Shown in pieces: positions 20,626 to 60,083 of a DNA stretch of 64,000 bases. This DNA is from Gemmatimonadota bacterium (GTDB taxonomy: Bacteria; Gemmatimonadota; Gemmatimonadetes; Longimicrobiales; Gaopeijiaceae). The stretch covers positions 62,001 through 126,000 of the forward strand of contig JAUIEJ010000012.1 of assembly GCA_030428885.1 (NCBI GenBank), read 5' to 3'. Every line of letters begins with the position of its first letter. Positions within the stretch are counted from its first letter, which is position 1. The notes under the pieces were generated by a model. The model was not told where the DNA came from, searched no databases, and worked only from the letters and a program-made list of their open reading frames with translations. The position numbers and the translations under genes were made by a program.

Positions 20626-22007
20626 TGCGATCGTCGTCTTCTTGGGGATGGGCGGGCTTCGTGCTCGGGGCCGTGACCGGGGCTGCCCTCCCGGCCGCGA
20701 GCCAGGAGCTTCGGCCCGTGGAGGTCACCCTGGCCCAGGCCGAGGCGGCCGCGCTCCGGGGCAATCCCGCCCTGGCCGCGGCGTCGGCACGGGTCGAGGG
20801 AGCCCAGTGGCAGGCCCGGGCCGCCGACGCCTTTCTCTGGCCCGGCGTCGAGGCGTCGGCGGGAGTCGTCCGCACCGACGATCCCGTGGGCGTCTTCGGC
20901 ACCAAGCTGCGCCAGGGTGTGTTCGGCGAGGCCGACTTCGCCATCGCCGCCCTGAACGATCCCGAGGCCGCCACGGACTGGACGGCGGGGGTCGGCGCCC
21001 GGTGGGCCGTGGGCGATCCGACCCGGTGGGCCGAACGCCGAGCGGCGGATCACGCCGCCCGGGCCGCCGGCGCCCAACGGGATCGGACGGCCGAGGCCGT
21101 GATCCTGGGCACCCGCATGATCTACCTCCAGGCCGTGGCCGCCCGGGGCGGCCGGGCCGCCGTGGAGGCCGAACTGGCGGCGGCCCGGGAGACGGCCCAG
21201 CGGGTCGACCGCCGGGTCGACGAGGGGCTGGCCACCGAGGCCGACCGGCTCCAGGCCGCTTCGGCGGTGGCCGACGCCCAGGCCCGGCTGCGGCTGGCCG
21301 AGGCCGCCTATCAGGACGCCGCGGGGGAGCTCTCCCTCCAGCTCGGATGGTCGGGCGACTCCATTCCCGTGCCCGCCGCCGGTCTGCCCACGTTGCCCGA
21401 CCGCTCCGCCGATCCCGAGGCGGCCTCGGAGCGGGCCGACCTGAGGGCGTCGGCGGCGGGGCTCGAGGCCGCCCGGGCCCAGGTGTCGGCCCGGTCCGCC
21501 GCCCGCCTCCCGTCGGTGGAGGCCTTCGGTCAGCTCGGCACCCACGCGCCGGGGTTCCTGGACGATCCCTCGGCCAACTGGACGGTGGGACTCCAGCTCT
21601 CGGTGCCCGTCTTCACGGGCTTCGGACTCGGGGCGGGGAAGGCCGCCGCCCAGGCCGAGGCCCGGGCCGCCGAGGCCGAACACCGGGACCGGGTGCTCCG
21701 GGCCTCGGTGGAAGTCGCCGCGGCTCGCCGGGGCGTGGCGGCCACCGGGGAGTCCCGGGATGCGGCCCGGGCCGCCCGGGACGCCGCCACCGAGGCCGCC
21801 CGGCTGCTGGGACTCCGGTACGACGAGGGGATGGCCACCCTGGCCGACCTCCTCCAGGCCCAGGCCCGAGCGGCCGGGCTCGACGCGGCCCTCGTGGAGG
21901 CCGACGCCCGCTGGCGCATGGCGCTGGCTCGACTCGACTTCGTGCTGGGCGCCGCTCCCGGCGCCACCACCACCACCGATTCCGACTCCTTCGGGGGGAT
22001 CCGATGA
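20625..22007 (+). CDS. TolC-family outer-membrane efflux protein
   Basis: This 460-residue protein has a signal peptide (cut near LPAASQE). The remainder is an Ala-rich, largely helical sequence with two repeats of the OEP type. Typical elements are VTLAQAEAAALRGNPAL near the N terminus and WTVGLQLSVPVFTGFGLGAGKAAAQ in the second half. TolC proteins form the trimeric outer-membrane channel of tripartite pumps. It sits between the ArsR gene and the adaptor gene, overlapping both (TGATG and ATGA), as expected for an RND export system. Confidence 0.9.
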   Translation: MRSSSSWGWAGFVLGAVTGAALPAASQELRPVEVTLAQAEAAALRGNPALAAASARVEGAQWQARAADAFLWPGVEASAGVVRTDDPVGVFGTKLRQGVFGEADFAIAALNDPEAATDWTAGVGARWAVGDPTRWAERRAADHAARAAGAQRDRTAEAVILGTRMIYLQAVAARGGRAAVEAELAAARETAQRVDRRVDEGLATEADRLQAASAVADAQARLRLAEAAYQDAAGELSLQLGWSGDSIPVPAAGLPTLPDRSADPEAASERADLRASAAGLEAARAQVSARSAARLPSVEAFGQLGTHAPGFLDDPSANWTVGLQLSVPVFTGFGLGAGKAAAQAEARAAEAEHRDRVLRASVEVAAARRGVAATGESRDAARAARDAATEAARLLGLRYDEGMATLADLLQAQARAAGLDAALVEADARWRMALARLDFVLGAAPGATTTTDSDSFGGIR

Positions 22008-38312: not shown

Positions 38313-40655
38313 ATGACCGATACGACATCCTCGCCCCGGCGACTCCGCCTGGGGTCCGTTCCGCTGCTGGCCGCCCTCCTCCTCCCCCTTCCCGGGTGCG
38401 CCGCCAACACCATGGCCCCTCCCGGGAGCGCCGGGGCGCCTCCCACGGCCGTGCCCCCGCCGCCCGCCGAGTCCGGAGCACCCCAGGAGCGTCGCGGCCC
38501 CGTCCGTACCGACGAGGAGCCCGGGGGCATGGTCTCCGCCGACATGGGCATGGCCGCCGAGGCGGCGCCCTTCGGCGTGGACCTGGACACGATCCGCGCC
38601 GGGGAGTTCGACCAGGGCCGCATGTGGACCTTCGACGTTCCCCCGGCCGACTACTTCCGCACGACCTACGGCATCGCCGCCGACAGCGCCTGGTTCGCCC
38701 GGGCGCGGCTCGGCGCCCTGCGGATCCCGTCGTGCTCGGCGAGCTTCGTCTCGCCCCACGGGTTGGTCATGACCAACCACCACTGCGCACGGGAGTTCGT
38801 GTCGCAGGTCAGCGAAGAAGGGGAGAATCTCCTGGACGAGGGGTTCTATGCCCGGACCCTGGCCGATGAGCGGGCCGTGGAGGACTTCGAGGCCGACCAG
38901 CTCGTGGCCATCGTCGACGTCACGGCCGAGATGGACGACGCGGTGGGCAACCGCACGGGTCAGGAGCGGGCCGATCGCATCGAAGAGAAGAGCGACGAGA
39001 TCGTGGAGCGGCTTCTCGAAGCCCGGGGCGGCGAGGACGCCGGCTTCAAGGTCGAGGTGGTGTCGCTCTACAACGGCGGCCGCTACTCGGCCTACGTCTT
39101 CCGGACCTACACCGACGTGAAGCTCGTCATGGCGCCGGAGCTCCAGATCGGCTTCTTCGGTGGGGATCCGGACAACTTCACCTTCCCCCGCTACAACCTC
39201 GATTTCTCGTTCTTCCGGATCTACGACGACGAGGGGCAGCCCCTGAGCACCGAGGAGTACTTCCCGGTGGCCGCCGACGGCGTGGCCGAGGGAGACCCGG
39301 TGTTCATCGTGGGCAACCCGGGGTCCACCTCGCGCCTCCAGACGGTGGCGGAGTTGATCTTCCGGCGAGAGGTCTCGGACCGGGCGGTTCTGGCGTTCCT
39401 CCGGGATCGGGCCGGGGTGCTGGAGGAGTACATCGACGCCTTCCCCGAGGAGGCGGAGGAGTACGACCTCCGCAACGTGCTCTTCGGACTCCTGAACTCG
39501 GACAAGGCCTACAACGGCCAGCTCGAGGGGTTGGCCGACCCGGTGATCCTGGCCCGCCGTCGCGACACGGAGCGGAGCTTCCGGGACGCGATCCAGGCCG
39601 ATCCCCAGTTGGCGGCCCGGTACGGGGGACTCATCGACGAGATGGCCGATCTGCAGGAGACCAAGCGGGCGGCGTCGGAGGGGTTCGGGGCCTTCCTGGC
39701 CCTCACGGTGGGGGACTACGCGTCGCCGACGCTCCATCGGGCGCTCCTGGCGTTCCAGATCGTGAACATGCGTCAGCAGGGAGCGCCGGAAGACGCCACC
39801 GCCGACCTCATGGAGCAGCTCATGGAGGTGGGCGACGTTCCCCAGGTTCTGGACCAGATGCTGGTGGAGGCCCGCATCGGCGACTTCATCGCCGCGTACG
39901 GCGACGACCAACGGTGGATCCTGAACATCCTGGGCGGTCGTACGCCCGAAGGGGCGGCCGCCGTGCTGGTGGAGACCTCGGCCCTGGCCGACTCGGCCCA
40001 GGCCGTGGAGGCGGTGCGCACCGGCACGCTGGACGTGAACGATCCGGCGCTCCGGTTCGTGGGATTCTACGTCCCGGCTTTCGTGCGCTTCCAGCAGGTG
40101 GTGGCCCAGGCCGGCCGGCGGGAAAGCGAGATCGCCGCCCTCCTGGGGCGGGCCCGCTACGAGATCTACGGCACCGACGTGCCCCCCGACGCCACCTTCT
40201 CGCTCCGCATCGCCGACGGGGTGGTGAGCGGGTATCCGTACAACGGGACCCAGGCGCCGTACGCCACCACGTTCTTCGGCATGTACGACCGTCACTACGC
40301 CTTCGCACCGGAGTACGCCGGTGACCCCGAGGACTCGCCCTGGTACCTCCCGGCCCGGTGGGCCACGCCGCCCTCGGGCCTCGATCTGTCCACGCCCGTG
40401 AACTTCGTGTCCACGGTGGACATCATCGGCGGCAACTCCGGATCCCCGGTGCTGAACGCCGATCTTGAGGTGGTGGGGGTGGTGTTCGACGGCAACATCC
40501 AGAGCCTGCCCGGAGACTACATCTTCCTGCCCGAGCTCAACCGTTCGGTGACGGTGGACATCCGGGGCATCCTGGAGGCGCTGGAGAACGTCTACGACAT
40601 GGGCGCGCTGGTGCGGGAACTCACCGACGGTGCCCAGGTGCCCGCCGGCGGCTGA
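38313..40655 (+). CDS. S46-family dipeptidyl-peptidase (DPP7/DPP11-like) lipoprotein
   Basis: This 780-residue protein has a lipoprotein signal (LPLPGCAA, Cys29). The S46 catalytic triad elements are visible: His in VMTNHHCAREF, Asp in GGDPDNFTFPRYNLDF and Ser in IIGGNSGSPVLNA. S46 enzymes remove dipeptides from peptide N-termini in the periplasm or at the surface. A Pro-rich, presumably disordered ~60-residue linker follows the lipidation site. The S1 specificity residue distinguishing DPP7 from DPP11 was not assigned. Confidence 0.94.
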   Translation: MTDTTSSPRRLRLGSVPLLAALLLPLPGCAANTMAPPGSAGAPPTAVPPPPAESGAPQERRGPVRTDEEPGGMVSADMGMAAEAAPFGVDLDTIRAGEFDQGRMWTFDVPPADYFRTTYGIAADSAWFARARLGALRIPSCSASFVSPHGLVMTNHHCAREFVSQVSEEGENLLDEGFYARTLADERAVEDFEADQLVAIVDVTAEMDDAVGNRTGQERADRIEEKSDEIVERLLEARGGEDAGFKVEVVSLYNGGRYSAYVFRTYTDVKLVMAPELQIGFFGGDPDNFTFPRYNLDFSFFRIYDDEGQPLSTEEYFPVAADGVAEGDPVFIVGNPGSTSRLQTVAELIFRREVSDRAVLAFLRDRAGVLEEYIDAFPEEAEEYDLRNVLFGLLNSDKAYNGQLEGLADPVILARRRDTERSFRDAIQADPQLAARYGGLIDEMADLQETKRAASEGFGAFLALTVGDYASPTLHRALLAFQIVNMRQQGAPEDATADLMEQLMEVGDVPQVLDQMLVEARIGDFIAAYGDDQRWILNILGGRTPEGAAAVLVETSALADSAQAVEAVRTGTLDVNDPALRFVGFYVPAFVRFQQVVAQAGRRESEIAALLGRARYEIYGTDVPPDATFSLRIADGVVSGYPYNGTQAPYATTFFGMYDRHYAFAPEYAGDPEDSPWYLPARWATPPSGLDLSTPVNFVSTVDIIGGNSGSPVLNADLEVVGVVFDGNIQSLPGDYIFLPELNRSVTVDIRGILEALENVYDMGALVRELTDGAQVPAGG

Positions 40656-41652: not shown

Positions 41653-43755
41653 ATGGCGTCTGCCAAGGAATACCGCACAGAAGACATCCGCAACGTGGCG
41701 ATCCTCGGGCACGGAGGCTCGGGCAAGACCACGCTGGTCGACGCCCTGGCCTGGGTGACCGGGGTCTCGAAACGACATGGAGACGTAGGTGAGGGACATG
41801 CCCTCACCATGCACACCCCCGAGGAGGCCGCCCACGGCATCTCCATCCAGTTGACGCCGGCGTGGGCCGAATGGGAGGGCACCAAGATCAACCTCCTCGA
41901 CACGCCGGGATACCTGGACTTCACCGGCGAGGCCAAGGCGGCGGTCCGTGTGGCGGACGCCGCCGTCGTCGTCGTGGGAGCGACGTCGGGAGTGGAGGTG
42001 GGAACGGAGAAGGTGTGGGAGTACTGCAAGGAGCGGGGACTGCCCCGGATGATCTTCGTGTCCATGATGGACAAGGAGAACGCCGATTTCACCGCCGTCT
42101 ACCGGGACATCCGGGCCCGCCTCACCGACAAGGTGGTGCCCGTGGAGATTCCCATCGGCGAGGGCGACGACTTCCACGGCATCATCAACCTCTTCTCCGA
42201 GCACGCCCACTTCTACGCCCAGGGGACCAAGACGGGGGAGTACACCCACGACGCGATCCCCGACGAACTGAAGGAGCGCTTCGAGCTGTGGGAGACCGAA
42301 CTCCAGGAGCGCCTGGCCACCATCGACGAGACCTACCTGGAGCACTATCTGGAGGGCGGCCAGCTCTCCCGTGAGGAGGTCCTGGAGGCCATGGCGCGGG
42401 GCATGGCGCGAGGCGAGTTGGTGCCCCTCTTCTGCGGCAGCGGCTCCACCTGCTACGGCACCCGGGCGCTGCTGAAGAAGATGGTGGAGCTCTTTCCCCA
42501 TCCCGGCGAGGCCGGGGGCGAGGTCGGTCGGCGCCCGAATCTGGAGCAGACGGTGGAGCTCCACTGCTCCGACGACGGCCCGCTGGCGGCGCTGGTGTTC
42601 AAGACCACCACCGAGCCCCACGTGGGCGAACTCTCGTTCTTCCGCCTCTTCTCGGGGTCGGTGGCCAACGGTGACGAGGTGGTGAACGCCAGCGACGGCG
42701 CCCCGGAGAAGCTGGGACACCTGGCCATCGCCCTGGGCAAGGAACGGGTCGAGGTGGGACGTCTCCACGCCGGCGACATCGGAGTGGTGGCGAAGCTCAA
42801 GCACACCCACACCAACGACACGCTCTGCTCGAAGGATCTTCCGGTGGCTCTCGACCCCGTGGAGTTTCCCCGGCCCGACATCGCCGTGGCCATCGTGGGG
42901 GAGACCCGCAACGACGAGGACAAGCTCGGCGAGGTGCTGCCCAAGCTCCACGAGGAGGATCCCACCTTCCACGCCGAGTTCGACGCCGAGCTCCACCAGA
43001 CCATCGCCCGGGGTCTCGGAGAACTCCATCTCGACGTCCAGTTGGAACGGCTCCAGCGGAAGTACCACGTCAAGGTCACCACCACCGAACCTCGCATCGC
43101 CTATCGGGAGACCCTCACCGGTGCCGCCGAAGGGCAGGGGCGGTACAAGAAGCAGACCGGGGGGCGGGGTCAGTTCGGGGACTGCTGGATTCGCCTCAAG
43201 CCCCGGGGCCGGGGCGAGGGGTACGAGTTCGTGGACTCCATCAAGGGCGGGGTGATTCCCGGGAAGTTCGTGCCCTCGGTGGACCGGGGGATCCAGGAGG
43301 CGGCGGCCAGGGGGATCGTGGCCGGATACCCCCTGGTGGACTTCACCGCCGAGGTCTACGACGGCTCGTACCACTCGGTGGATTCGTCGGACATCGCCTT
43401 CAAGATCGCCGGCTCCATGGCGTTCCACTCGGTGGCCGAAAAGGCTCGACCGAAGTTGCTGGAGCCCATCATGGAGGTCGAGGTGACCACGCCCGAGGAG
43501 TTCATGGGCGACATCATGGGCGACATGAACCAGCGGCGGGGGCGGGTCATGGGCATGGACTCGGCCGACGGCCGGACCACCATCAAGGCCCGGATCCCCC
43601 AGGCCGAACTCTACAAGTATGCCAACTCCCTTCGCTCCATGACCCAGGGCCGGGCCCACCACACCCGGCGTTTCGTGGGCTACGAGTTCGTGCCCGATCA
43701 GGAGACGCAGAAGATCGTGGCTGCCCGGGAGGCGGAGAACGGCGGCCACGGCTGA
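41653..43755 (+). CDS. EF-G-like translational GTPase (FusA2-type) with divergent G motifs
   Basis: This 700-residue protein has all EF-G domains: the G domain, domain II, and III-V through the C-terminal GRAHHTRRFVGYEFVP. The G motifs deviate from classic EF-G. The P-loop is GHGGSGKT (19-26); the G2 region reads AAHGIS where EF-G has RGIT; G3 is DTPGY (83-87) with Tyr in place of the catalytic His; G4 is SMMD (137-140) instead of NKxD. DTPGY is also seen in FusA2-type paralogs, whose role in translation is unsettled. A different role in ribosome rescue or stress is possible. A housekeeping fusA is expected elsewhere. Confidence 0.9.
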   Translation: MASAKEYRTEDIRNVAILGHGGSGKTTLVDALAWVTGVSKRHGDVGEGHALTMHTPEEAAHGISIQLTPAWAEWEGTKINLLDTPGYLDFTGEAKAAVRVADAAVVVVGATSGVEVGTEKVWEYCKERGLPRMIFVSMMDKENADFTAVYRDIRARLTDKVVPVEIPIGEGDDFHGIINLFSEHAHFYAQGTKTGEYTHDAIPDELKERFELWETELQERLATIDETYLEHYLEGGQLSREEVLEAMARGMARGELVPLFCGSGSTCYGTRALLKKMVELFPHPGEAGGEVGRRPNLEQTVELHCSDDGPLAALVFKTTTEPHVGELSFFRLFSGSVANGDEVVNASDGAPEKLGHLAIALGKERVEVGRLHAGDIGVVAKLKHTHTNDTLCSKDLPVALDPVEFPRPDIAVAIVGETRNDEDKLGEVLPKLHEEDPTFHAEFDAELHQTIARGLGELHLDVQLERLQRKYHVKVTTTEPRIAYRETLTGAAEGQGRYKKQTGGRGQFGDCWIRLKPRGRGEGYEFVDSIKGGVIPGKFVPSVDRGIQEAAARGIVAGYPLVDFTAEVYDGSYHSVDSSDIAFKIAGSMAFHSVAEKARPKLLEPIMEVEVTTPEEFMGDIMGDMNQRRGRVMGMDSADGRTTIKARIPQAELYKYANSLRSMTQGRAHHTRRFVGYEFVPDQETQKIVAAREAENGGHG

Positions 43756-45602: not shown

Positions 45603-48290
45603 TCAGGGCGCGTTCAGCGATCCCGTGGGATCGACCCGGGTCGCCCGCATCGCCGGAGCCAGGCCCGCGGCGAGGGTGGCCATGGCCAGCACCAGCGTAG
45701 CCAGGGCGAGGGACACGGGGTCCCGCGCCGTCACTTCGAAGAGGTAGCGGCCCAACACGCCCGTGGCCGCCCAGGAGGCCGCCAACCCCACGGCGAGCCC
45801 CCCGACGGCCAGCACGAGGTTGCGTCGAAGCACCAGGCCCAGCACCGCCCCGGCGTCGGCACCCAGGGCCATGCGGATCCCCATTTCCCGCCGCCGCAGG
45901 GTCACGGCGTGGGCCAGCGTCGCGTAGACGCCGGCGGCGGCCAGCAGCAGCGCCACGCCGGCGAAGCCCGTGAGCAGCAGCATGTTGATCCGGGGCTCGG
46001 AGCGGGTGCGCGCCATGCGATCGGCCATGGACGACAGCCGGTCCACCGGCAGGTGGGCGGCGTAGCGGGCGCCCGCGGCCCGAAGGTCGGTCGTGAGCGC
46101 CTGGGCCTCCCGGTCGCTCCGGACGATCACCCGGATCCACGGCCACCCCTCCCCCTGACGGAAGGACAGGTAGACCGCCGGGCGCAGGCCTTCTTCGGCC
46201 CGGGTCTGGACGACGTTGCCCACGACCCCCACCACCTGGGCCGGCGTGTCCTCATCGCCGAGGAGGAACGTGGCCCCCAGGGGGTCGTCGCCGGCGAGAT
46301 GGGTGTCGACGAAGGCCTGGTTCACCACCACCGCCACGACGTCGTCGGGGCCGTCGGACGCGCGGATCCCGCGTCCCCGGAGCACCGGAATGCCCAGGGC
46401 CTCGAAGTAGCCCGGTGTGACGAGGTAGCCGGCGTTGCCCAGCATCAGTTCGTCCGGTGCGGAGCCGGGCCGACGGAGGGAGGGGGCCCAGTTCGGGTTC
46501 TCGTAGGGCAGGTTCGACGCGCCGGCCACCGCCGTGAGTCCGGGGATGGCCCGAACCTCGTCCAGGAGGGCCATCCACGCGTCACCGGCCGGTTCGGGAT
46601 CCGGGCCCCGCTTGGTGCCCATGCTGAACGTGGTGAGTCCCTCCGGGTCGAACCCCGGGTCCACGCTGCGGAGCTCCACGAAGGACCGGGTCAGGAGGGT
46701 CCCGCCCGTCACCAGCACCAGGGCCAGGGCCACCTGGATCGCCACGACCCCGTCCATCCAGGCCGTCCGCCCCCCGGCGACGGCCCCGGCCGAGCGCCGC
46801 AGCCCCTGGGCGACGTTGCCGGCGCCCACCCGCAGGGCGGGGACGAGCCCCGCCGCGACGCCCACCAGGGCCGAGAGGGCCACGGCCGCCCCCAGCACGC
46901 GCAGGTCCACCGACACGTCCTGCATCCGCGGCACCAGGCCCGGGGCCAGGCTTCGGAAGGCCGCCACCGAGGCCGCCGCCAGGCCCGACCCCAGAAGTCC
47001 CCCGGCCAGAGCCAGGACCAGGGCCTCCACCACGTTCTGCCGCACGAGGGATGAGCGGCTGGCGCCCAGCGCCGTCCGCACGCCCAGGTCGCCGGCGCTT
47101 TCCAGGCTTCGGACGAAGAGCAGGTTGGTGGCGTTCAGGACGGCGATGGCCAGGAGGAGTCCCGCGGCCCCCAGGAAGATGAGGAGGGTGCGGCCGGTGG
47201 CCCCCACCGTCTCGGCCCGCAGCAGATTGGCGCCCCAGCCGAAGTGTGTGCCGTCGGGGTACACGTTGCCGTCGGGCCAGGTGCGGGCCAGGTCGGCCGC
47301 CAGACCATCGAGCTCGGTGCGGGCCTCGTCCAGGGTGGCCCCCATGGCCAGGCGTCCGAACAGCGTGAGGCTCCGGTTCCCCCGGCTCTCGTAGCGGGGG
47401 TGGTCCAGTTCCAGAGGCACCCAGAACTCGTTGTCGTCCCCGGCCACGGCCTCGGGGGCCTGGAAGTCGGGGGGGAGCACCCCCACGATGGTCTGGGCCG
47501 CCCCCTGGCTCGAGACGGGTCGCCCGATCACGTCGGGGTCGCCGCCGAAGCGCTGCATCCAGGTGCCGTAGGTCAGAAGGGTCACCGAGCCGGTCCGCCC
47601 GGCGAAATCGTCGGGGCCGAAGAGGCGTCCCAGGTGGGGCCGCACCCCCAGGGTCTCGAAGAAGCCCTCGGTCACCGCCATCATGCCCACCAGCTCCGGG
47701 CCCGCCGGGCCGTCGGGGATCAGGGCGCCCAATCGCTGGAGGCCCACCAGACGGTCCAGCGTCCGGGCCCGATCCCGGACCTCGGCGAAGTTCAGGTAGG
47801 AGACGCCGGCGAGGTACTGGAGACCCGCCGCGTCGTCCCGCCACTCCCGGCCGGGGAAGGTGACGCCCACGGCCACGAGGCGCTGGGCCTCGGGGTAGGG
47901 AAGGGAGCGCAGCATGACGCCGTCCACCACGCTGTAGACCGCGGTGGTGGCGCCGATGCCAAGCCCCAGTACACCCACCACCATCAGGGCCGCCCGGGGG
48001 TGCCGCCGTGCCCTTCTCGCCGCCAGTCGCAGGTCCCGCCACCATCCACTCATGCCTCCCCCTCCTCCCGTGGGATTCGTTCCCGGGCCTCGCCGAGCGA
48101 GGCGCCGCCTGCGTCGCACTGCCGCCGGACTCCACCAGGCCGCCACCGTGGCCACCACGTCCCGGAGGTGAGCCCCCCGGGCGCGCCACGAGCCGTCGTC
48201 GTCGGACCGCCACGCCTCGTGCAGGTCACCCCGCACCACCTCGGCGTCGGGTCCCCGGATCAGGGCCGCCAGCCAGCGGGTGAGTCTCAC
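45603..48290 (-). CDS. ADOP-type MacB/FtsX permease
   Basis: The start GTG 48288-48290 overlaps the PadR stop (GTGA). The 895-residue protein has an N-terminal prefix (residues ~1-78) with GDLHEAWR-like residues, then two repeats of a MacB-like periplasmic core plus FtsX helix set: TM1 near residue 100, core, TM2-4 near 355-485, then the second half with TM near 790-880 and conserved GIRMALGADAGAV. ADOP ('acidobacterial duplicated orphan permease') proteins lack a partner ATPase. The transported substrate is unknown. It is opposite in direction to yebC and ruvC. Confidence 0.88.
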   Translation of the reverse strand: MRLTRWLAALIRGPDAEVVRGDLHEAWRSDDDGSWRARGAHLRDVVATVAAWWSPAAVRRRRRLARRGPGTNPTGGGGGMSGWWRDLRLAARRARRHPRAALMVVGVLGLGIGATTAVYSVVDGVMLRSLPYPEAQRLVAVGVTFPGREWRDDAAGLQYLAGVSYLNFAEVRDRARTLDRLVGLQRLGALIPDGPAGPELVGMMAVTEGFFETLGVRPHLGRLFGPDDFAGRTGSVTLLTYGTWMQRFGGDPDVIGRPVSSQGAAQTIVGVLPPDFQAPEAVAGDDNEFWVPLELDHPRYESRGNRSLTLFGRLAMGATLDEARTELDGLAADLARTWPDGNVYPDGTHFGWGANLLRAETVGATGRTLLIFLGAAGLLLAIAVLNATNLLFVRSLESAGDLGVRTALGASRSSLVRQNVVEALVLALAGGLLGSGLAAASVAAFRSLAPGLVPRMQDVSVDLRVLGAAVALSALVGVAAGLVPALRVGAGNVAQGLRRSAGAVAGGRTAWMDGVVAIQVALALVLVTGGTLLTRSFVELRSVDPGFDPEGLTTFSMGTKRGPDPEPAGDAWMALLDEVRAIPGLTAVAGASNLPYENPNWAPSLRRPGSAPDELMLGNAGYLVTPGYFEALGIPVLRGRGIRASDGPDDVVAVVVNQAFVDTHLAGDDPLGATFLLGDEDTPAQVVGVVGNVVQTRAEEGLRPAVYLSFRQGEGWPWIRVIVRSDREAQALTTDLRAAGARYAAHLPVDRLSSMADRMARTRSEPRINMLLLTGFAGVALLLAAAGVYATLAHAVTLRRREMGIRMALGADAGAVLGLVLRRNLVLAVGGLAVGLAASWAATGVLGRYLFEVTARDPVSLALATLVLAMATLAAGLAPAMRATRVDPTGSLNAP

Positions 48291-48643
48291 CCGTCGACCC
48301 CGCCGCCGGCCCGGGCCTCCAGGTGTCCCAGGAGTCCCCGGGACATGTCCTGGAAGATCCGGACGGAGCGGGACAGGGCCTCGGCGCCCTCCGGGGTCAG
48401 GCGGTAGAGTCGACGCCGTCGGCCCCCCCGCTCCCCGGTGGGTTCGCTGGTCCAGGAGTCCACGAGTCCGTGCTCCCGGAGTCGATCGAGGGTCGTGTAG
48501 ACTGCGCCGGTGGAGGCCGATCGGTCCGTTCGCCGCCGGATCGTCTCCCGGATCGACACGCCGTAGGCCTCGGCCTCCTCCCGCTCCAGTTCCAGGAGCG
48601 CGAAGAGGACGGATTGCTCGAATTCACCCAGGGTCTTGGACAC
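48287..48643 (-). CDS. PadR-family transcriptional regulator of the adjacent ADOP permease
   Basis: The start GTG 48641-48643 is supported by AGGAG upstream; the longer in-frame start at 48700 has none. The 118-residue protein carries the PadR winged helix (LGEFEQSVLFALLELEREEAEAYGV, TGAVYTTLDRLREHGLV) and the wing LYRLTPEGAEALSR. PadR proteins are ligand-controlled repressors. Its stop overlaps the permease start, and a pair of palindromes lies over and upstream of its start. Confidence 0.9.
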   Translation of the reverse strand: MSKTLGEFEQSVLFALLELEREEAEAYGVSIRETIRRRTDRSASTGAVYTTLDRLREHGLVDSWTSEPTGERGGRRRRLYRLTPEGAEALSRSVRIFQDMSRGLLGHLEARAGGGVDG

Positions 48644-48648
48644 GGAAC

Positions 48649-48697
48649 TCCTACGCCGTAGGACTAATGCGACGCCGGTATCTACCACGTCGTAGTA
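48649..48697 (-). promoter_or_regulatory. Two tandem palindromes upstream of the PadR-ADOP operon
   Basis: Site 2 (48649-48663) is a perfect 15-base palindrome with TACG-N-CGTA at its core (TCCTACG C CGTAGGA). Site 1 (48683-48697, TACCACG T CGTAGTA) matches the same pattern with one mismatch. Their centres are 34 bases apart, about three helical turns. They lie between the PadR start and the divergent ruvC gene, where an autoregulatory operator is expected. Confidence 0.7.
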
Positions 48698-48812
48698 CAA
48701 AGGGCAAGCCCCAGGGCACCTCCGGCCTGGACCCGGTCCCCCTCCCGGGAGCCTCGCCCCGTCGTCCCGCCCTGTCCCTTCCCCTTCTCCAAGACCCTTC
48801 TAGCTTCCAGCC

Positions 48813-49331
48813 ATGCCGCCCTCCGCCGCCTCCGGCTCCGACGAACGCCTGGTCCTGGGAATCGACCCGGGAACGGCGGTGACGGGGTACGGGGTGGTGG
48901 CCCGGCGCCCGGGGGGGCGCGTGCGCCTGGTGGAGTGCGGGGTGATCCGGACCGCGGCGGGAGAGCCCCTGGCCCGGCGCATCCGGGACGTCTTCGAGGG
49001 CGTGAGCGACCTCATGGAGCGCCACCGGCCCCACGCCGCAGCCGTGGAAGACGTCTTCCAGGGCAAGAACGTGCGGAGCGCCCTGACCCTGGGGCACGCC
49101 CGGGGAGCCATCCTCCTGGCCGTGTCGCTCCGGGAGATCGCCCTGGCCGAATACACGGCGCCGGAGGTGAAGAAGGCCGTGGTGGGCACGGGGCGGGCCA
49201 CCAAGCATCAGGTGGCCTTCATGGTGCAACAGCAGCTCCGTCTCAAGTCGCCGCCGGCGCCCCACGACGCCGCCGACGGTGTCGCCGTGGCGCTCTGCCA
49301 CTGCATGATGGGGTCGTGGCCCCGCCCCTGA
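48813..49331 (+). CDS. ruvC: Holliday junction endonuclease RuvC
   Basis: This 172-residue protein fits RuvC. Catalytic acidic residues are visible as Asp in LGIDPGTAVTGYG, Glu in VEDVFQGKN and the C-terminal APHDAADGVAVALCH region with its two Asp residues. It resolves Holliday junctions with RuvAB. A short gap (67 bases) separates it from ruvA. A 113-base promoter region lies between its start and the oppositely oriented PadR gene. Confidence 0.95.
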   Translation: MPPSAASGSDERLVLGIDPGTAVTGYGVVARRPGGRVRLVECGVIRTAAGEPLARRIRDVFEGVSDLMERHRPHAAAVEDVFQGKNVRSALTLGHARGAILLAVSLREIALAEYTAPEVKKAVVGTGRATKHQVAFMVQQQLRLKSPPAPHDAADGVAVALCHCMMGSWPRP

Positions 49332-49989: not shown

Positions 49990-50317
49990 GGGGGGCACCA
50001 CAGCCTTCCAGGCCGGCCCGGCGGTATCCTTCGCCCGGACCAGGGGGCCTCAACCCGCCACGCCGGCCCGGATTCGAGCAGCGCGCCGGATCGGGGCGGC
50101 TATGTGTCCCGTTCCCGTCATGCTGCGCCGGATCGGGCGTCGCGGGTCGTTTTTGGGGCGTCATGGGCGCCCGGTTCTGCCACGGCGCCTGAGACGCGGG
50201 CCGCGTGACGGGTTGGGGCGGTCGCCTCGAGCGAGACGTCCTCTGGACGCTTCGGGACCCCCTATATAGATTTCGGGGGAGCACGCCCCCCTTCCCGTCT
50301 TTCGCCCGAGTTCGCCC
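49990..50317 (+). promoter_or_regulatory. 328-base intergenic region with a CTATATAG promoter-like block
   Basis: No coding region is seen. At 50262-50269 lies CTATATAG, an 8-base palindrome and the only strongly AT-rich block, flanked by CCCC and GGGGG. TGGACG at 50244-50249 could serve as a -35 for TATAGA at 50265-50270 (spacing 15). This probably drives the PadR gene at 50318. The remainder is G+C-rich with no clear gene. Confidence 0.45.
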
Positions 50318-50623
50318 ATGCGCCTCACCTACCTCACCGGGGTCGTCCTCGCCGCCATCGAAGCGGGGCACCGGTACGGCTTCGACATCATGGACGCCAC
50401 TGGGATCCCCGACGGCACGGTGTATCCCGCCCTCCGACGCCTGGAAGGCGCCGGGTGCCTCGAGGCCCGGTGGGAAGACCATCAGGAGGCGGCCGATCAC
50501 AACCGGCCGGCGCGGCGCTACTACCGGCTGACCCCCGACGGCCGGGCGCTTCTGGATCAGGCTCGCGCGCGCTTCCCGGGGGTGGCGCGCATCTTCGGTG
50601 ACCCGGAGCCCGAAGCCGGCTGA
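50318..50623 (+). CDS. PadR-family transcriptional regulator
   Basis: This 101-residue protein carries the PadR winged helix: YLTGVVLAAIEAGHRYGFDIMDATG, then GIPDGTVYPALRRLEGAGCLEARW, and the wing RRYYRLTPDGRALL. It is shorter than usual PadR proteins, so the C-terminal dimerisation helix is reduced. Its stop overlaps the next permease gene start (TGATG). It is expected to repress its own operon, with the CTATATAG promoter region just upstream. Confidence 0.9.
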   Translation: MRLTYLTGVVLAAIEAGHRYGFDIMDATGIPDGTVYPALRRLEGAGCLEARWEDHQEAADHNRPARRYYRLTPDGRALLDQARARFPGVARIFGDPEPEAG

Positions 50624-53271
50624 TGGGTTTCCGGTCCCCCGGCCTCACGGCCCGGCTCTGCGGCGCCCTGACCCGGGCGGCGGCGGCCCTGGTGCCCCTG
50701 GACCGTCGGGCCGCCTTTCGTCGGGAGTGGGACGCCGAGCTGGCCCACGCCCTGGACCCCCGACCCCCTCGCCGGCCGCCGGGGCCGTGGGGTCGCGTTC
50801 GTCTCGTCTACCGGGCCGCCCTGGCCCTGGCCGATGCCCTGTCCCTTCGCGCCCGGGAGTCGACGTTGGACTCGTTCACCAAGGACCTTCGCCTCGCCGT
50901 TCGCTCGTTTGGGCGGCGGCCTGCCTTCACGGCCCTGGCCCTGGCCACCATCGCCCTGGGCATCGGGGCCAACACGGCGATTTTCACCGTGGTGGACGCC
51001 GTCCTGCTGAGCCCGCTGCCCTATCCCGAGCCCGATCGTCTCGCCCTGGTGTGGGAGCAGGACAACGAGCGGGGGTGGGACCGGGTCCCGGCGTCGGCCG
51101 AGGACTTCCTGGCGTGGCGCGCCGAGACCCGGGCCTTCCAGGCTCTGGCGGCGGGCCGGGGGCAGAGCTACGCCCTCACCGACGGTGACGGCCCGCCGGA
51201 GCAGGTCCCGGGAATGGCCGTGTCGGCCGACTTCTTCGACGTGTTCGGCGTGCGGCCCGCCCGGGGGCGTCCCTTCGGTCCGGCGTCGAACGTCCAGGGG
51301 GCTCCCCCGGTGGTGGTGCTGTCCCATGGGCTGTGGGAACGACGCTACGGCGCCGATCCCGATCTGGTGGGACGCACGATCCGCATCGGAGGGGAGCCGG
51401 TGGAGGTGGCGGGGGTCATGCCCGAGGGCTTCCAGTTTCCCAGCCAGGCCCAGCTCTGGACTCCCCTCGTGTTCAGCCAGGCCCAACTCGACGATCGCAA
51501 CTGGCACTTCCTCACCCTGGTGGGCCGCCTCTCCGACGACGTCTCGGTAGAGGGCGCCCGGGCCGAGATCCGCACCCTGGCCGCTCGTCAGGCCGAGGAA
51601 TGGCCCGAATCCAACGCAGGGTGGGGTGCCGACGTGCGCCCCCTCCACGCCGAGATGACCCAGTCCGTGAGCGGCATGCTCTGGGTGCTCCTGGGCGCCG
51701 TGGGGTTCGTGCTGCTCATCGCCTGCGCCAACGTGGCCAACCTCCTCCTGGTGCGAGCCGCGGGACGCACCCGGGAGATGTCGCTTCGGGCGGCTCTGGG
51801 AGCGGGCAAGGTGCGCCTCGTGCGCCAGCTCCTCACCGAGAGTGTGGTGCTGGCCGGGGCCGGGGCGGTGCTGGGTGTGCTTCTGGCCGGGTGGGCGCTG
51901 GACGCCCTCCTGGCTCTGGGGCCCCTCACCGTGCCCGGGGGTGGGACCATCGAGATCGACCTCCCGGTGCTGGGCCTCACGGCGCTGGCGGCCCTGGTCA
52001 CGGGGGTGGTCTTCGGCGCCGCCCCGGCGGTGGCCGTGTGGCGGTCCGACCTCCAGACCTCGCTCCGGGAGGGAGGGCGGAGTCGCACCGCGGCCGGCGG
52101 CCATCGGCTCCGGTCGCTCCTGGTGGTGTCGGAGTTGGCCCTGGCCCTGGTCCTGGTCACCGGCGCCGGCCTCATGCTCCAGACGGTGCAGCGCCTCCTG
52201 GCCGTGGACGTGGGCGTGGCGGTGGAGAACCGCCTCGTGACCCAGTTCGCCCTCCCGGCGGCGTCGTATCCCGGCCTCGAGGAGCAGACCCGCTTCTACG
52301 ACGCCCTCCTGGAATCGGTGGAGGCCCTTCCCGGGGCGGAGGCCGCGGCTCTGAACCCGTGGGTGCCGCCGGCCGGGGGTCCCCAGATCCACGTGCGCCT
52401 CGAAGGGGTCCACGACGCCTGGACCATGGACCTGCCCGTGGTGCGGCTGCGCCCCGTGAGCGCCGGGTACTTCGAGACCATGGAGATCCCCCTGATCCGG
52501 GGGCGCACCCTCACCGACGACGATCGCCTGGGGGCCCCCCGGGTGGTGGTGGTGGACCAGGCGTTCGTGGACGTCCACTTCCCCGGCGAGGACGCCATCG
52601 GACGCCGCCTCCTCACCCTGGACGACGAGCCCCGGGAGATCGTGGGGGTGGTGGCCGACGTGGCCAACGCGGGGCTGGGCAACGGATCCCAGCCGTCGGT
52701 CTACCTCCCCCTGCGCCAGAGCACCTTCGGCGCCGGCCAGACCCTCATCGTGAAGACCGCGGGAGACCCGGCGGCGCTGGTGTCGGCGGTGCGTCAGGCC
52801 GTGTCGGATCTGGACCCCGACCTTCCCCTCACGGGCATCGGCACCCTGGAGGACCGGGTGGCCGCCGCCGTGGCCCAGCCTCGATTCAACGCCCTGCTCC
52901 TGGGGCTCTTCGCGGTGCTCGCCCTCGTCCTGGCGGCGGTGGGCATCTACGGCGTCATGGCGTTCACCGTGAGCGAGCGCACCGCCGAGATCGGGGTGCG
53001 CATGGCCCTGGGGGCGTCGGCCGCCAGCGTCCGGGGCATGGTGGTGCGCCGGGCCGTGGTCCTGGCCGGCGCCGGGGTCGTCCTGGGCGTGCTGGCCTCC
53101 ATCGCCCTCACGCGCCTCATGGAGAGCCTCCTCTTCGGGGTGGAGCCCGGAGACCCCCGCACCCTGGCCGCGGTCTCGGCCCTGCTCTTCGGCGTGGCGC
53201 TCCTGGCCAGCTACGTGCCCGCCCGGCGGGCGAGTCGCCTCGACCCCGTGGGGGCGCTGCGGGACGAGTAG
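50623..53271 (+). CDS. ADOP-type MacB/FtsX permease
   Basis: This 882-residue protein has an N-terminal prefix of its own type (about residues 1-85, with RRAAFRREWDAELAHAL). Two MacB-core plus FtsX repeats follow: TM1 about 110, core 130-345, TM2-4 about 355-490, second core, and terminal TM with GVRMALGASAASVRG. As in the other ADOP genes, no ABC ATPase is adjacent. It is translationally coupled to the PadR gene upstream. Confidence 0.9.
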   Translation: MGFRSPGLTARLCGALTRAAAALVPLDRRAAFRREWDAELAHALDPRPPRRPPGPWGRVRLVYRAALALADALSLRARESTLDSFTKDLRLAVRSFGRRPAFTALALATIALGIGANTAIFTVVDAVLLSPLPYPEPDRLALVWEQDNERGWDRVPASAEDFLAWRAETRAFQALAAGRGQSYALTDGDGPPEQVPGMAVSADFFDVFGVRPARGRPFGPASNVQGAPPVVVLSHGLWERRYGADPDLVGRTIRIGGEPVEVAGVMPEGFQFPSQAQLWTPLVFSQAQLDDRNWHFLTLVGRLSDDVSVEGARAEIRTLAARQAEEWPESNAGWGADVRPLHAEMTQSVSGMLWVLLGAVGFVLLIACANVANLLLVRAAGRTREMSLRAALGAGKVRLVRQLLTESVVLAGAGAVLGVLLAGWALDALLALGPLTVPGGGTIEIDLPVLGLTALAALVTGVVFGAAPAVAVWRSDLQTSLREGGRSRTAAGGHRLRSLLVVSELALALVLVTGAGLMLQTVQRLLAVDVGVAVENRLVTQFALPAASYPGLEEQTRFYDALLESVEALPGAEAAALNPWVPPAGGPQIHVRLEGVHDAWTMDLPVVRLRPVSAGYFETMEIPLIRGRTLTDDDRLGAPRVVVVDQAFVDVHFPGEDAIGRRLLTLDDEPREIVGVVADVANAGLGNGSQPSVYLPLRQSTFGAGQTLIVKTAGDPAALVSAVRQAVSDLDPDLPLTGIGTLEDRVAAAVAQPRFNALLLGLFAVLALVLAAVGIYGVMAFTVSERTAEIGVRMALGASAASVRGMVVRRAVVLAGAGVVLGVLASIALTRLMESLLFGVEPGDPRTLAAVSALLFGVALLASYVPARRASRLDPVGALRDE

Positions 53272-53359: not shown

Positions 53360-53695
53360 GTGTCGAAGTCCTCCAACGCCGACGTTCTCCGAGGCACGCT
53401 GGACCTTCTGATCCTCACGGTCCTGGCCGAAGCCCCCATGCACGGATGGGGCATCAGCCAGCGCATCCAGGAGGGGTCGAAGGGGCTCCTGGAGGTCAAT
53501 CAGGGATCCCTCTATCCGGCACTCCAGCGCCTCGAGCAGAGGGGCTGGGTCTCGAGCGTGTGGGGCACGAGCGACAACAACCGCCGGGCGAAGTTCTACG
53601 CCCTGACGGCGGCGGGCACGGACGGCCTCACCCGGGAGACCGACGAGTGGCGGCGCTACTGCGGGGCCGTGGAGTGGATCCTGGAGGGGACGTGA
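53360..53695 (+). CDS. PadR-family transcriptional regulator
   Basis: The start GTG 53360 is preferred, with AAAGGAG 11 bases upstream; an ATG 63 bases earlier has no site. The 111-residue protein has DVLRGTLDLLILTVLAEAPMHGWGISQRI and NQGSLYPALQRLEQRGWV, the classic PadR helix-turn-helix, then RAKFYALTAAGTDGLTRET. Its stop overlaps the start of the next permease gene (GTGA). Confidence 0.92.
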   Translation: MSKSSNADVLRGTLDLLILTVLAEAPMHGWGISQRIQEGSKGLLEVNQGSLYPALQRLEQRGWVSSVWGTSDNNRRAKFYALTAAGTDGLTRETDEWRRYCGAVEWILEGT

Positions 53696-56349
53696 GGGCC
53701 TCCGGCCGACTCCAGCGTCTGCTCCGGGTCTTTCGGGGACTCCGGGCGCGCTTCCGCCACACGCTCCTCCGGCGCCGGCTGGACCGGGAGATGGACGACG
53801 AGATCGCGTTCCATCTCGCCATGGAGGCGGAAAAGCTCGAGTCCCAGGGGGTCGATCCCGCCGAAGCTCGTCGCCGGGCAGCGGTGGCCTTCGGAGGGGT
53901 CGAGCGGCACCGGGAGGCGCTGCGGGAGGGCCGCCGGGTGCCCGTGCTGGAACCGCTGGTGCGGGACGTGCGATTCGGGATGCGGTCCCTCGCTCGGGAG
54001 CCCGGCTTGACCCTGGCGGCCGTCGTCACCATCGCCCTCGGGGTCGGGGCCACGACGGCGGTGTTCAGCGTGACCCGGGCCCTCCTGCTGCGGCCGCTGC
54101 CCATCCCGGAGGTCGACCGGCTGATGTCGATCCAGGAGCAGCGGAGCGGCGCCGTGTCCACGGGCGTGGAGGGCATGTTGATCCCCTATCCGCGCTTCGA
54201 GGCGTACGCCGACGCCACCGAAGGGGTGTTCCGGTCCACGGCGGCGGTGCGCCTCGACGGATTCGCACTGCGTCTCGACGACGTGACGGTGCACGTCGAC
54301 GGCGCCCTGACGTCCGGGGGCTTCTTCGAGACCGTGGGGATTCGCCCGATCCTGGGGCGGGTCTACACCGGGGACGACGACGCCGAGATCGTGATCTCCC
54401 ACGATCTGTGGTTGGCCCGCTTCGGGGGCGACCCCGAGGTGGTGGGTCGCCGTGTGGCGCTGGACGGCGCCGCCGTGACCATCGTCGGGGTCGGACCCCG
54501 GGGCTTTCGGGGGGTGACCGCCTTCGCCGACGCCCTCTGGGCGCCGGTGGGCATCCGGGATCTGGAGCCCGATTCCTGGGGACTCCGGGTCGTGCCCCTG
54601 GGCCGTCTCGCCGACGGCGTGGACCGGGCCCGGGCCGCAGCGGTGGTGGACGCCGCCGCCGGAGCCATCCCCTCGGACCCGAATGCGACGATCCGGGGCG
54701 CTACCCTCGATCCGGTCCAGAGCGTTCCCGTCCAGGGGCGTGGTGTGGTCGGGGCGTTCCTGGGACTGCTCCTGGGCCTCGCCGTACTGGTGCTCCTCAT
54801 CGCCGCGGCCAACATCGCGAGCGTGCTCCTGGCTCGGGCCTTCGCCCGGCGGAGGGAGACGGCGGTCCGCCTCGCCCTGGGGGCCGGCCGGGCCCGGGTG
54901 GTGCGCCACCTCCTCGCCGAGGCGCTGCTGCTCTTCGTCGCGGGCGGGGCCGCGGGTGTGGCCCTCGCGTACCTGGGTACCGCCGCCCTCGCGTCCATCC
55001 CGCTCCCGCCGCAGGCTCCCGTGATCCTCGACCTCGCGCCGGACCGGACGGTGCTCGTGTTCGCCCTGGCGGTGACGGGTGGGACGGGTCTGGTCTTCGG
55101 GCTCGTTCCGGCGCTGCAGGCGTCCCGTCCCGGCCTGATCGGCGCCCTTCGGGCCGGAGGGTGGGGAGCCACCGCCGGCGGCGGCTGGACCCGCGACCTC
55201 TTCGTCGGGGGACAGGTCGCCCTCTCGGTCCTGCTGCTCGCCACGGCGGCGCTCTTCGCGGGGTCGTTTCGGGCGGGAGCCTCCGTGGACCCCGGGTTCG
55301 ATGCGGCGGGAGTGGTGGTGGCCCGAATCGATCTGGGGGCCCCCCACGACTACGACGGCGGCGCGCGGCTGCGCTTCTGGTCCGAGCTCCGGGACCGCGC
55401 CCGGGCGATTCCCGGGGTGAAGTCGGTGGGGCTGGCCCAGCTCGTGCTCCTGTCCGGCGATCGGTGGGGCGGCGACGTGCGGGCCGCGGACGACCCCGAC
55501 GCACCGGGCGTCAACGCCTTCAGCGACTTCGTGGGATGGGGCTGGTTCGAGGCCCTGGAGGTCGAGATCGTGGAGGGGCGGGCCTTCCGTCCGTCCGACG
55601 GTCCGGACGCCCCACCCGTGGCGGTGGTGAATCAGTTCGCCGCCGAACGCCTCTGGCCCGGCGAGACCGCCGTCGGGCGGCGGTTGCGGGGCGCCATGAA
55701 CCGGAGCGAGGAGGTGGAGGTGGTGGGTGTGGTCCGGGACGGTCGCTACGTCTTCGCCACCGAGGAGCCCACCGCGGCCGTGTTCCAACCCCTGGACCAG
55801 ATGTCCCCCACGGCGGCGTCCATCCATCTTCGGGCCCCGGGCTCCGAAGCCCGGGCCCTCCGGGAACTCGGCGAGATCGTGCGCAGTATGGACGCCGACG
55901 TCGCCCTGGAACTGGCCGGCCCCCTGGAAGCCCTGATCGGGTTCAGCCTCTATCCCCACCGCATCGCGGCGGGCCTGGTCGGGGCCTTCGGCGTGGTGGG
56001 TCTCCTTCTGTCGGCCCTGGGACTCCACGGCGTCCTGGCCCACCAGGTGGCCCGGCGCACCCGGGAGTTCGGGGTGCGCCGAGCCCTGGGGGCCGGAACC
56101 GGCGACGTGGTGGCCCGGGTGCTGGGGCGAGGGGCGGTGCTCGCCGGCGCGGGCTGCGCCGTGGGCCTCGCAGCCGGGTGGCTCGTGGCCCGGGGCGTGG
56201 GAAGCTTCCTCTACGGCGTCACCCCCCTGGGCGCCCCCTCCCTGGCCGCCGTGGCGGCCCTGCTCTTCGCCGTGGCCGTGGGCGCCGGACTGGTGCCGGC
56301 CCTTCGCGCCGGCCGGGTCGCTCCCGCCCGGGCGCTGCGGGACGAGTAG
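53692..56349 (+). CDS. ADOP-type MacB/FtsX permease
   Basis: The start GTG 53692 overlaps the PadR stop. The 885-residue protein has a longer N-terminal prefix (about residues 1-95, with REMDDEIAFHLAMEAEKLES and DPAEARRRAAVAFGG). Two MacB-core plus FtsX repeats follow, with GVRRALGAGTGDVVARVL near the end. The prefix differs from those of the other two ADOP genes in the window. No ATPase partner is present. Confidence 0.9.
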   Translation: MRASGRLQRLLRVFRGLRARFRHTLLRRRLDREMDDEIAFHLAMEAEKLESQGVDPAEARRRAAVAFGGVERHREALREGRRVPVLEPLVRDVRFGMRSLAREPGLTLAAVVTIALGVGATTAVFSVTRALLLRPLPIPEVDRLMSIQEQRSGAVSTGVEGMLIPYPRFEAYADATEGVFRSTAAVRLDGFALRLDDVTVHVDGALTSGGFFETVGIRPILGRVYTGDDDAEIVISHDLWLARFGGDPEVVGRRVALDGAAVTIVGVGPRGFRGVTAFADALWAPVGIRDLEPDSWGLRVVPLGRLADGVDRARAAAVVDAAAGAIPSDPNATIRGATLDPVQSVPVQGRGVVGAFLGLLLGLAVLVLLIAAANIASVLLARAFARRRETAVRLALGAGRARVVRHLLAEALLLFVAGGAAGVALAYLGTAALASIPLPPQAPVILDLAPDRTVLVFALAVTGGTGLVFGLVPALQASRPGLIGALRAGGWGATAGGGWTRDLFVGGQVALSVLLLATAALFAGSFRAGASVDPGFDAAGVVVARIDLGAPHDYDGGARLRFWSELRDRARAIPGVKSVGLAQLVLLSGDRWGGDVRAADDPDAPGVNAFSDFVGWGWFEALEVEIVEGRAFRPSDGPDAPPVAVVNQFAAERLWPGETAVGRRLRGAMNRSEEVEVVGVVRDGRYVFATEEPTAAVFQPLDQMSPTAASIHLRAPGSEARALRELGEIVRSMDADVALELAGPLEALIGFSLYPHRIAAGLVGAFGVVGLLLSALGLHGVLAHQVARRTREFGVRRALGAGTGDVVARVLGRGAVLAGAGCAVGLAAGWLVARGVGSFLYGVTPLGAPSLAAVAALLFAVAVGAGLVPALRAGRVAPARALRDE

Positions 56350-59762: not shown

Positions 59763-60083
59763 CTACTCCCGCACCCGTTGGATGAGGGCTTCCATGTGAT
59801 CCAGGTACCGCTTGAGGGCGTCTCGACCCGCCGGCGTGAGGCGATAGTCGGTGCGGGGCATGCGTCCCTCGAACGACTTCGTCACCTCCAGGTACCCCGC
59901 CTCCTCGAGACGGCGGGCGTGGACGCTGAGATTGCCGTCGGAGGTCTCCAGCCGGTCCTTCAGTTCGTTGAAGGTGAGGGACTCCTCCACGGCCAGGGCG
60001 CTCACGATGCCGAGGCGCACCCGTCCGTGGATGAGCCGGTCGAATTCCACCGGGTTGGTGCCGGCACCGGCCGTGGCCGTCAT
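59763..60083 (-). CDS. Winged-helix transcriptional regulator (HTH_34-type)
   Basis: The start ATG 60081-60083 is chosen for its AAGGAGGGGC ribosome-binding site; a GTG at 60143 would add 20 residues. The 106-residue protein has the one-domain winged-helix pattern: LIHGRVRLGIVSALAVEESLTFNELKDRL, then SDGNLSVHARRLEEAGYLEV, and the wing TDYRLTPAGRDALKRYL. This resembles regulators of the HTH_34/ArsR-MarR-like group. It is co-transcribed with the membrane protein upstream (60136-60747). Both its operon and uppS carry the AAGTACTT-N7-TAAAGT motif, so it may control both. Confidence 0.85.
   Translation of the reverse strand: MTATAGAGTNPVEFDRLIHGRVRLGIVSALAVEESLTFNELKDRLETSDGNLSVHARRLEEAGYLEVTKSFEGRMPRTDYRLTPAGRDALKRYLDHMEALIQRVRE

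Follow-up and report, generated by a model that had tools for sequence, protein, structure and literature searches.

Paired palindromes upstream of a padR gene as a predicted tandem operator of a PadR–ADOP operon in a Gemmatimonadota bacterium

Two 15-bp palindromes lie upstream of padR1, the first gene of a padR–ADOP operon in a stretch of 64,000 nucleotides of Gemmatimonadota DNA (the window). Comparison with other PadR promoters makes it very probable that they form a tandem operator, by which PadR1 would repress the promoter of its own padR–ADOP operon. An earlier note on this DNA had proposed an operator of the PadR heading this operon, and the comparison supports this prediction well: through the counts of the site class among PadR promoters, through the position of all four genomic occurrences of the site, through the tandem dyads of the orthologs, and through the link between half-site and protein residue. 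In the proposed arrangement, a PadR1 dimer would place one α3 recognition helix on each half-site of an 11-bp CTRC-NNN-GYAG dyad. Occupancy of the distal dyad, between the putative −35 and −10 elements, would block the binding of RNA polymerase, the proximal dyad, over the transcript start and the Shine–Dalgarno sequence, would reinforce the repression, and a ligand or signal freeing PadR would switch on PadR and the ADOP permease at the same time. Binding, repression, the blocking mechanism and the inducer are what we infer. Repression rather than activation is suggested by the position of the dyad just past the −35 element and by analogy with known PadRs, as described in the available parts of their reports (PMC3506622, PMC6624303, PMC5050560).

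The tandem dyads and the padR1 promoter

The elements of the padR1 locus are as follows.

48702–48707, minus strand: putative −35 element TTGCCC, weak, inferred from sequence
48683–48697: distal dyad, one mismatch, core CTACGACGTGG (minus strand) at 48685–48695; in the putative promoter spacer, touching the −10 element
48679–48684, minus strand: putative −10 element TAGATA, also weak, 17 bp from the −35 element
48649–48663: proximal dyad, perfect, core CTACGGCGTAG (minus strand) at 48651–48661; overlapping the padR1 Shine–Dalgarno sequence
48648–48652, minus strand: Shine–Dalgarno sequence AGGAG, read from the sequence, 4 nt before the GTG
48287–48643, minus strand: padR1, 118 aa, GEFEQ-type, helix α3 GAVYTTLDRL
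45603–48290, minus strand: ADOP permease 1, 895 aa; TIGR03434 705.6 bits (cut-off 622.3)

The proximal dyad, TCCTACGCCGTAGGA, is a perfect 7+1+7 palindrome centred at 48656, and the distal dyad, TACCACGTCGTAGTA, which contains one mismatched pair, is centred at 48690, so that the perfect palindrome and its one-mismatch copy, 34 bp apart, are as the earlier note described them. The pair does not straddle the start of padR, as had been thought, because the ATG of the same-genus orthologs aligns exactly with GTG 48643; both palindromes are therefore upstream of padR1, the proximal one at −6 to −20 and the distal one at −40 to −54. The distal dyad occupies the end of the promoter spacer, and the proximal dyad covers the leader together with the Shine–Dalgarno sequence. 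A promoter scan gave no site at its threshold.

Regarding the symmetry itself, TACGNCGTA occurs once in the window, where 0.02 occurrences are expected, and similar palindrome pairs 15–60 bp apart occur twice against an expectation of 0.19, the other pair being found at 21752/21773. The tandem CTRCN3GYAG dyads of the promoter, at their spacing of 34, have a shuffle P of 0.010. Nevertheless, a chance symmetry of GC-rich DNA, devoid of function, has its own arguments at this level. The window has many perfect 15-bp odd palindromes (24, against 14.4 with an s.d. of 3.5 in shuffles), and a test for 15-nt self-repeats gave a p of only 0.025 for the padR1 promoter (200 shuffles) and 0.020 for the padR1 coding stretch used as a control, so the palindrome pair by itself is not decisive. 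The core of the distal dyad, CTACGNCGTRG, is also frequent, with 81 places on one genome strand (control, 11), and 11 of the 12 places examined were in coding-like frames. Since perfect palindromes and the distal core are common and the self-repeat p is modest, the case must rest on comparison. At up to one mismatch, TACNACGNCGTNGTA is found at 19 places of the genome, against nine in the reversed control, and its sole zero-mismatch place is the distal dyad of the window. A guessed consensus, TACTACGNCGTAGTA, had no exact match across 395 genomes of the phylum, and a search of viral contigs yielded one relative. Elsewhere in the window, the perfect palindromes TGTCCAYNRTGGACA at 40408–40422 and 42059–42073 were considered as a second operator and rejected, since they are inside coding frames; judging from the reading frames, these genes are peptidase-like and elongation-factor-G-like, and the recurrence is probably a coincidence.

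PadR1 contains a PadR winged helix-turn-helix (wHTH) domain, with 50.4 bits against PF03551 (cut-off 27). Its score against TIGR03433 (padR_acidobact) is 35.7 bits, below the cut-off of 101.8, which places it in another, also ADOP-paired, PadR branch with the N-terminus LGEFEQ (the GEFEQ branch). The predicted structure (mean pLDDT 90.6) matches the folds of Rv3488, LmrR, cdPadR1 and BsPadR-DNA, and its recognition helix α3 comprises residues 45–57, with a Tyr followed by Leu-x-Arg, as in the PadR family. Taking PadR-s2 (LmrR-like) proteins as those of about 100–120 residues with a wHTH and a C-terminal dimerisation helix, PadR1 fits this build, its 118 residues comprising the wHTH and, past the wing, the helices 84–101 and 105–113. 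The drug-binding Trp of the PadR-s2 C-terminal helix has no counterpart among residues 84–118.

The padR1 stop codon overlaps the GTG start of ADOP permease 1 in the sequence GTGA (48287–48290). The permease contains two MacB_PCD and two FtsX stretches; ADOP permeases are not known to have an ATPase partner. Small PadR proteins of the TIGR03433 family pair with ADOP permeases (TIGR03434), and this pairing is seen here too, although PadR1 is far below the TIGR03433 cut-off. On the other side, the divergent ruvC gene starts at 48813 on the plus strand, and the intergenic region is common to ruvC and padR1.

Orthologous promoters and the CTRC-N3-GYAG class

The two best padR1 homologs in the genus (L047 of genome G001 and L048 of genome G003) encode proteins 70 and 67% identical to PadR1, and both are followed by an ADOP homolog. 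Their promoters carry tandem dyads, CTGCATTGCAG and CTGCAACGCAG at a distance of 28 in G001, and CTGCAACGCAG and CTGCAGCGCAG at a distance of 26 in G003 (shuffle P 0.006 in each case); a third promoter from the same family, L049, has tandem dyads with a spacing of 23 (0 of 1000 shuffles). All of these show zero mismatches to CTRCN3GYAG. Directly after the distal dyad, the window and G001 both read TAGATA, and G003 reads TACATA. The half-site of the window is CTAC and that of both orthologs is CTGC; residue 51 of the protein is Thr in the former and Gly in the latter. The motif had originally been given as TACG-N-CGTA, and its absence from orthologous promoters had been named in advance as a reason to abandon it; this literal motif is absent from L047 and L048, which contain tandem CTGC-N3-GCAG dyads instead. 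We read this difference as a changed half-site accompanying a changed recognition residue 51.

The orthologs also bear on the possibility that the palindrome acts in the RNA, as a hairpin hiding the Shine–Dalgarno sequence. Although a 6-bp stem with a 3-nt loop over AGGA is possible in the leader of the window, this leader folds no better than shuffles (z −0.56), the proximal dyads of the orthologs are well upstream of the start (−41 and −36), with leaders that fold no better than chance, and a hairpin would leave the tie to the recognition helix unexplained. This reading was rejected on the fold score and on the distance of the ortholog dyads from the start, and we regard it as very improbable.

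The predicted DNA operator was then placed among PadR promoters at large, in a pool made up of the own genome, its relatives (with 56 of the 107 PadRs of G003) and a scan of 58 loci from named genomes of Gemmatimonadota, Acidobacteriota, Nitrospirillum, Sorangium and others. In non-redundant promoters, taken irrespective of the protein N-terminus, an exact CTRCNNNGYAG is present in 37 of 102 whose PadR has a Y-T-x helix (shuffles: mean 0.4, maximum 2), in 1 of the 182 whose PadR has a different helix of the searched form (1.1 expected), and in 3 of 94 without a helix match (0.4 expected), two of these three belonging to GEFEQ proteins. A narrower set of 156 non-redundant proteins was defined by a GEFEQ-like N-terminus and a G[AS][VIFL][YHF] helix, a filter that left out L113 (a counter-example, see below), L303, L279, L299 and others. 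Here the exact site was found in 34 of 82 Y-T-x promoters (shuffles 0.5, maximum 2) and in none of the 74 others (0.2 expected). At up to one mismatch, the corresponding figures are 57/82 (9.8 expected) and 11/74 (6.8 expected), and for tandem sites 17/82 (shuffles 0.5, maximum 3) and 1/74. The remaining 25 Y-T-x promoters of this set lack a dyad even when one mismatch is allowed.

Within the 5.39-Mb genome, the form CTACRNYGTAG occurs at only four places (reversed-pattern control, seven), and all four precede a padR start by no more than about 60 bp; the proximal dyad of the window is one of them, and the site of L113 is another. Together with the 37 promoters of the class and the tandem dyads of the orthologs, this makes functionless symmetry very improbable. 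Outside the genus the core is not diagnostic: in 58 related genomes, CTACANTGTAG was found at 21 loci, each from a different genome. A PadR domain starts 28–57 bp downstream in eight of them (all five same-genus loci plus G016, G017 and G264), and the other 13 loci yielded no PadR. The loci L388–L391, L393 and L394 have palindromes of the TTCTACATTGTAGAA type and no PadR found within the locus; these are perhaps distant targets of a PadR encoded elsewhere, and in L390 the frame following the site opens, by eye, like an ADOP N-terminus. An exact CTGCAGTGCAG is also seen 41 bp before the start of L005, which encodes a PadR of a quite different branch, and represents either chance or a second use of the dyad.

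Of 58 promoters, 16 have a TTGAC-like −35 element no more than 24 nt before the first dyad (shuffles 3.5, maximum 10). The earlier suggestion of a cooperative operator is left unsupported, as tandem spacings in the relatives range from 14 to 40 bp with no clear helical phase (Rayleigh test at 10.5 bp: p 0.16 for 17 tandem spacings, p 0.03 for 27 direct repeats from this genome); the two dyads may act cooperatively, but spacings that vary in this way do not clearly favour it.

Recognition-helix residues and the half-site

In a scan of all protein columns of the filtered set, residue 50 came out on top as a predictor of site presence (z 11.7); whether a half-site reads A or G was predicted best from residue 51 (z 7.3, n=31 promoters). 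Both residues are inside the modelled recognition helix. Among Y-T helices, half-sites with A and G number 35 and 3 for Thr51 (rows that hold five near-identical proteins of the Nitrospirillum type), 0 and 14 for Gly51, 22 and 10 for Ala51, and 4 and 0 for Val51. Comparing A-only and G-only promoters, Thr or Val against Gly at this position gives a Fisher p of 3e-5, in data that are phylogenetically related and contain six YTG proteins, five of them with a site and two of them close orthologs. Contrasts based on trees gave two supported independent changes at residue 51 (four on the best tree); both agree with the rule, and they are too few for significance.

Among promoters collected once the rule was known, a site is present in 5 of 16 Y-T promoters (0.5 expected) and in none of 27 others. 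The sole new YTG protein, L310, has CTGCAGTGCAG, with the CTGC half-site that the rule expects, and the remaining half-sites are mixed (three YTT promoters, five A and one G; one YTA promoter, one of each). L113 has a Y-S-T helix and yet an exact CTACAATGTAG, so Thr50 is not strictly needed. On these alignments, a code relating residues 50 and 51 to half-site bases is likely rather than proven.

The association of the half-site base with residue 51 of the adjacent padR also speaks against the dyads serving another regulator, such as another of the many PadRs or one acting on the divergent ruvC. The shared intergenic region and the related CTACANTGTAG dyads at other PadRs of the genome would suit this alternative, but in relatives the dyads follow padR and not ruvC: no ruvC match was found beside the padR1 homologs of L198, L249 and L247, though dyads are present there (in L247 one by count, and a second, looser one by eye). 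This indicates that the dyads go with padR, and we consider control by another regulator very improbable.

PadR–ADOP operons across the genome and known PadR operators

The window contains two further padR–ADOP pairs, and the TIGR03434 score is above the cut-off in all three ADOP permeases.

50260–50274: element CCCTATATAGATTTC of the padR2 promoter, recurring in the G001 ortholog as CCCTATATAGAATTC with different flanks
50318–50623, plus strand: padR2, of the second PadR–ADOP pair
50623–53271, plus strand: ADOP permease 2; TIGR03434 946.7 bits
53287–53318: inverted repeat CTTCCTGTTG / CTTCCTGTCG upstream of padR3, p 0.049
53360–53695, plus strand: padR3, of the third pair; TIGR03433 above cut-off
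53692–56349, plus strand: ADOP permease 3, start not settled; TIGR03434 722.5 bits (cut-off 622.3)

Neither the padR2 nor the padR3 promoter contains TACG-N-CGTA, for which the earlier note had suggested a search upstream of other PadR–ADOP pairs, or a CTRC-N3-GYAG site even at one mismatch, and we read them as paralogs with other operators. A weak match to the PadR model (23.7 bits, below the cut-off) was also seen at 59811–59954 in another regulator-like gene; an ADOP match was looked for downstream of this gene and none was found.

Pfam finds 107 PadR matches in the genome, 105 of them over the cut-off, and our own profile finds 108 PadR genes. An ADOP gene, defined as a same-strand ORF opening within 600 nt and matching an ADOP of the window at E≤1e-8, follows 97 of the 108. 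This arrangement, together with the overlap of the padR1 stop with the ADOP start, bears out the description of PadR1 as an ADOP regulator in the operon sense. In relatives, counting ADOP matches within 3.2 kb or to the end of the fetched DNA, the pairing is seen in 41 of 47 (G001), 17 of 21 (G002) and 50 of 56 pooled (G003) cases. Many padR promoters contain a repeated element, which varies between genes: at p≤0.01, a direct or inverted repeat of 15 nt is present in 38 of 107 padR promoters (loci L001–L030, L076–L133 and the window), in 3 of 89 other-gene promoters taken from the collected loci and in 1 of 107 padR coding stretches. At p≤0.05, these figures are 50/107, 14/89 and 7/107, the second of which shows the shuffles to be somewhat lenient; padR1 is among the 50 and outside the 38. 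In 35 of the 38, the second copy of the repeat is matched better in the same promoter than in the 106 others, which again argues against a foreign regulator, with the reservation that padR1 is not one of them and that the figure is partly circular, the 38 having been picked for self-similarity. A test independent of that choice compared 99 reciprocal best pairs with G001–G003, requiring the ortholog promoter to beat every other pooled padR promoter of its genome; it shared the best 15-mer in 58 pairs (2.5 expected). The padR1 of the window is an exception here because its half-site changed, its two orthologs ranking 8th of 47 and 12th of 56 as partners of its promoter.

Autoregulated PadR operators are already known from the available parts of the literature, including one with two inverted-repeat sets in its own promoter. 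This is cdPadR1 of Clostridioides difficile (PDB 5dym), for which each set was bound by EMSA and autoregulation was proposed (PMC5050560). It resembles PadR1 in being a PadR-s2 protein, in having the repeats in its own promoter and in being a fold match of the PadR1 model, and it differs in its operator, TACT(N11–12)AGTA with an AT-rich core instead of CTRC-N3-GYAG, and in the 200 further places of its motif in the genome, compared with the four CTACRNYGTAG places here, all at padR genes (PMC5050560, as far as available). According to the accessible text of PMC3506622, LmrR, bcPadR1 and PadR-s1 repressors are wHTH dimers with the α3 motif EGT(L/I)YPxLxRLE; autoregulation is proposed for bcPadR1, and LmrR acts at lmrCD. 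The same text gives the classical PadR operator as ATGT/ACAT with a spacer of 8–10 nt, whereas neither ATGT nor ACAT occurs in 48641–48760, nor, consequently, the inverted repeat ATGT-N8–10-ACAT. LftR of Listeria monocytogenes, a PadR-s2 protein, recognises a partly palindromic site within the promoter of its own gene, and the consulted portion of PMC6457526 describes one operator site, against the two dyads found here; Tyr48 of its wHTH is essential for binding, and the equivalent in PadR1, judged by motif, is Y49. By its sequence, the element in the window is a candidate autoregulatory PadR operator with a half-site and a spacing other than the classical ones.

Considering the whole set, we incline, by a little, to the view that about 100 paralogous PadR–ADOP operons have regulators diverged into largely mutually distinct PadR–operator pairs, that is, natural orthogonal autorepressors, and that residues 50 and 51 largely write the specificity, Thr50 going with the CTRC-N3-GYAG class and residue 51 setting the variable base (A with Thr or Val, G with Gly, either with Ala). 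In the open-licence literature searched, no report was found of some 100 padR–ADOP neighbours in one genome, many with their own operator, or of the two-residue recognition rule. Such a set would make testable how a repressor family escapes cross-talk after mass duplication. It would also open to test a simple code linking residues to bases in the PadR fold, which would be of use in the design of orthogonal repressors. With sites that can be aligned with proteins, part of the DNA-recognition code would become readable, and the operators would offer a handle on the inducers, and hence on the function, of ADOP permeases.

Other padR promoters of the own genome (G000) show further elements. Those of L006 and L015 have a clear operator-like element, unlike their G001 orthologs, L142 and L150, whose promoters look like the simple repeats CCGCCGACC and CCTGCCAGCCCG. 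Finally, several promoters of the GTLD branch contain a tandem element with copies 33–35 bp apart, the first of them over a TTGAC −35 element, as in TGACATCTTAGGGGA/TGACATCTTATGGGA and in the exact repeat GACCTAAAACTCTTA.
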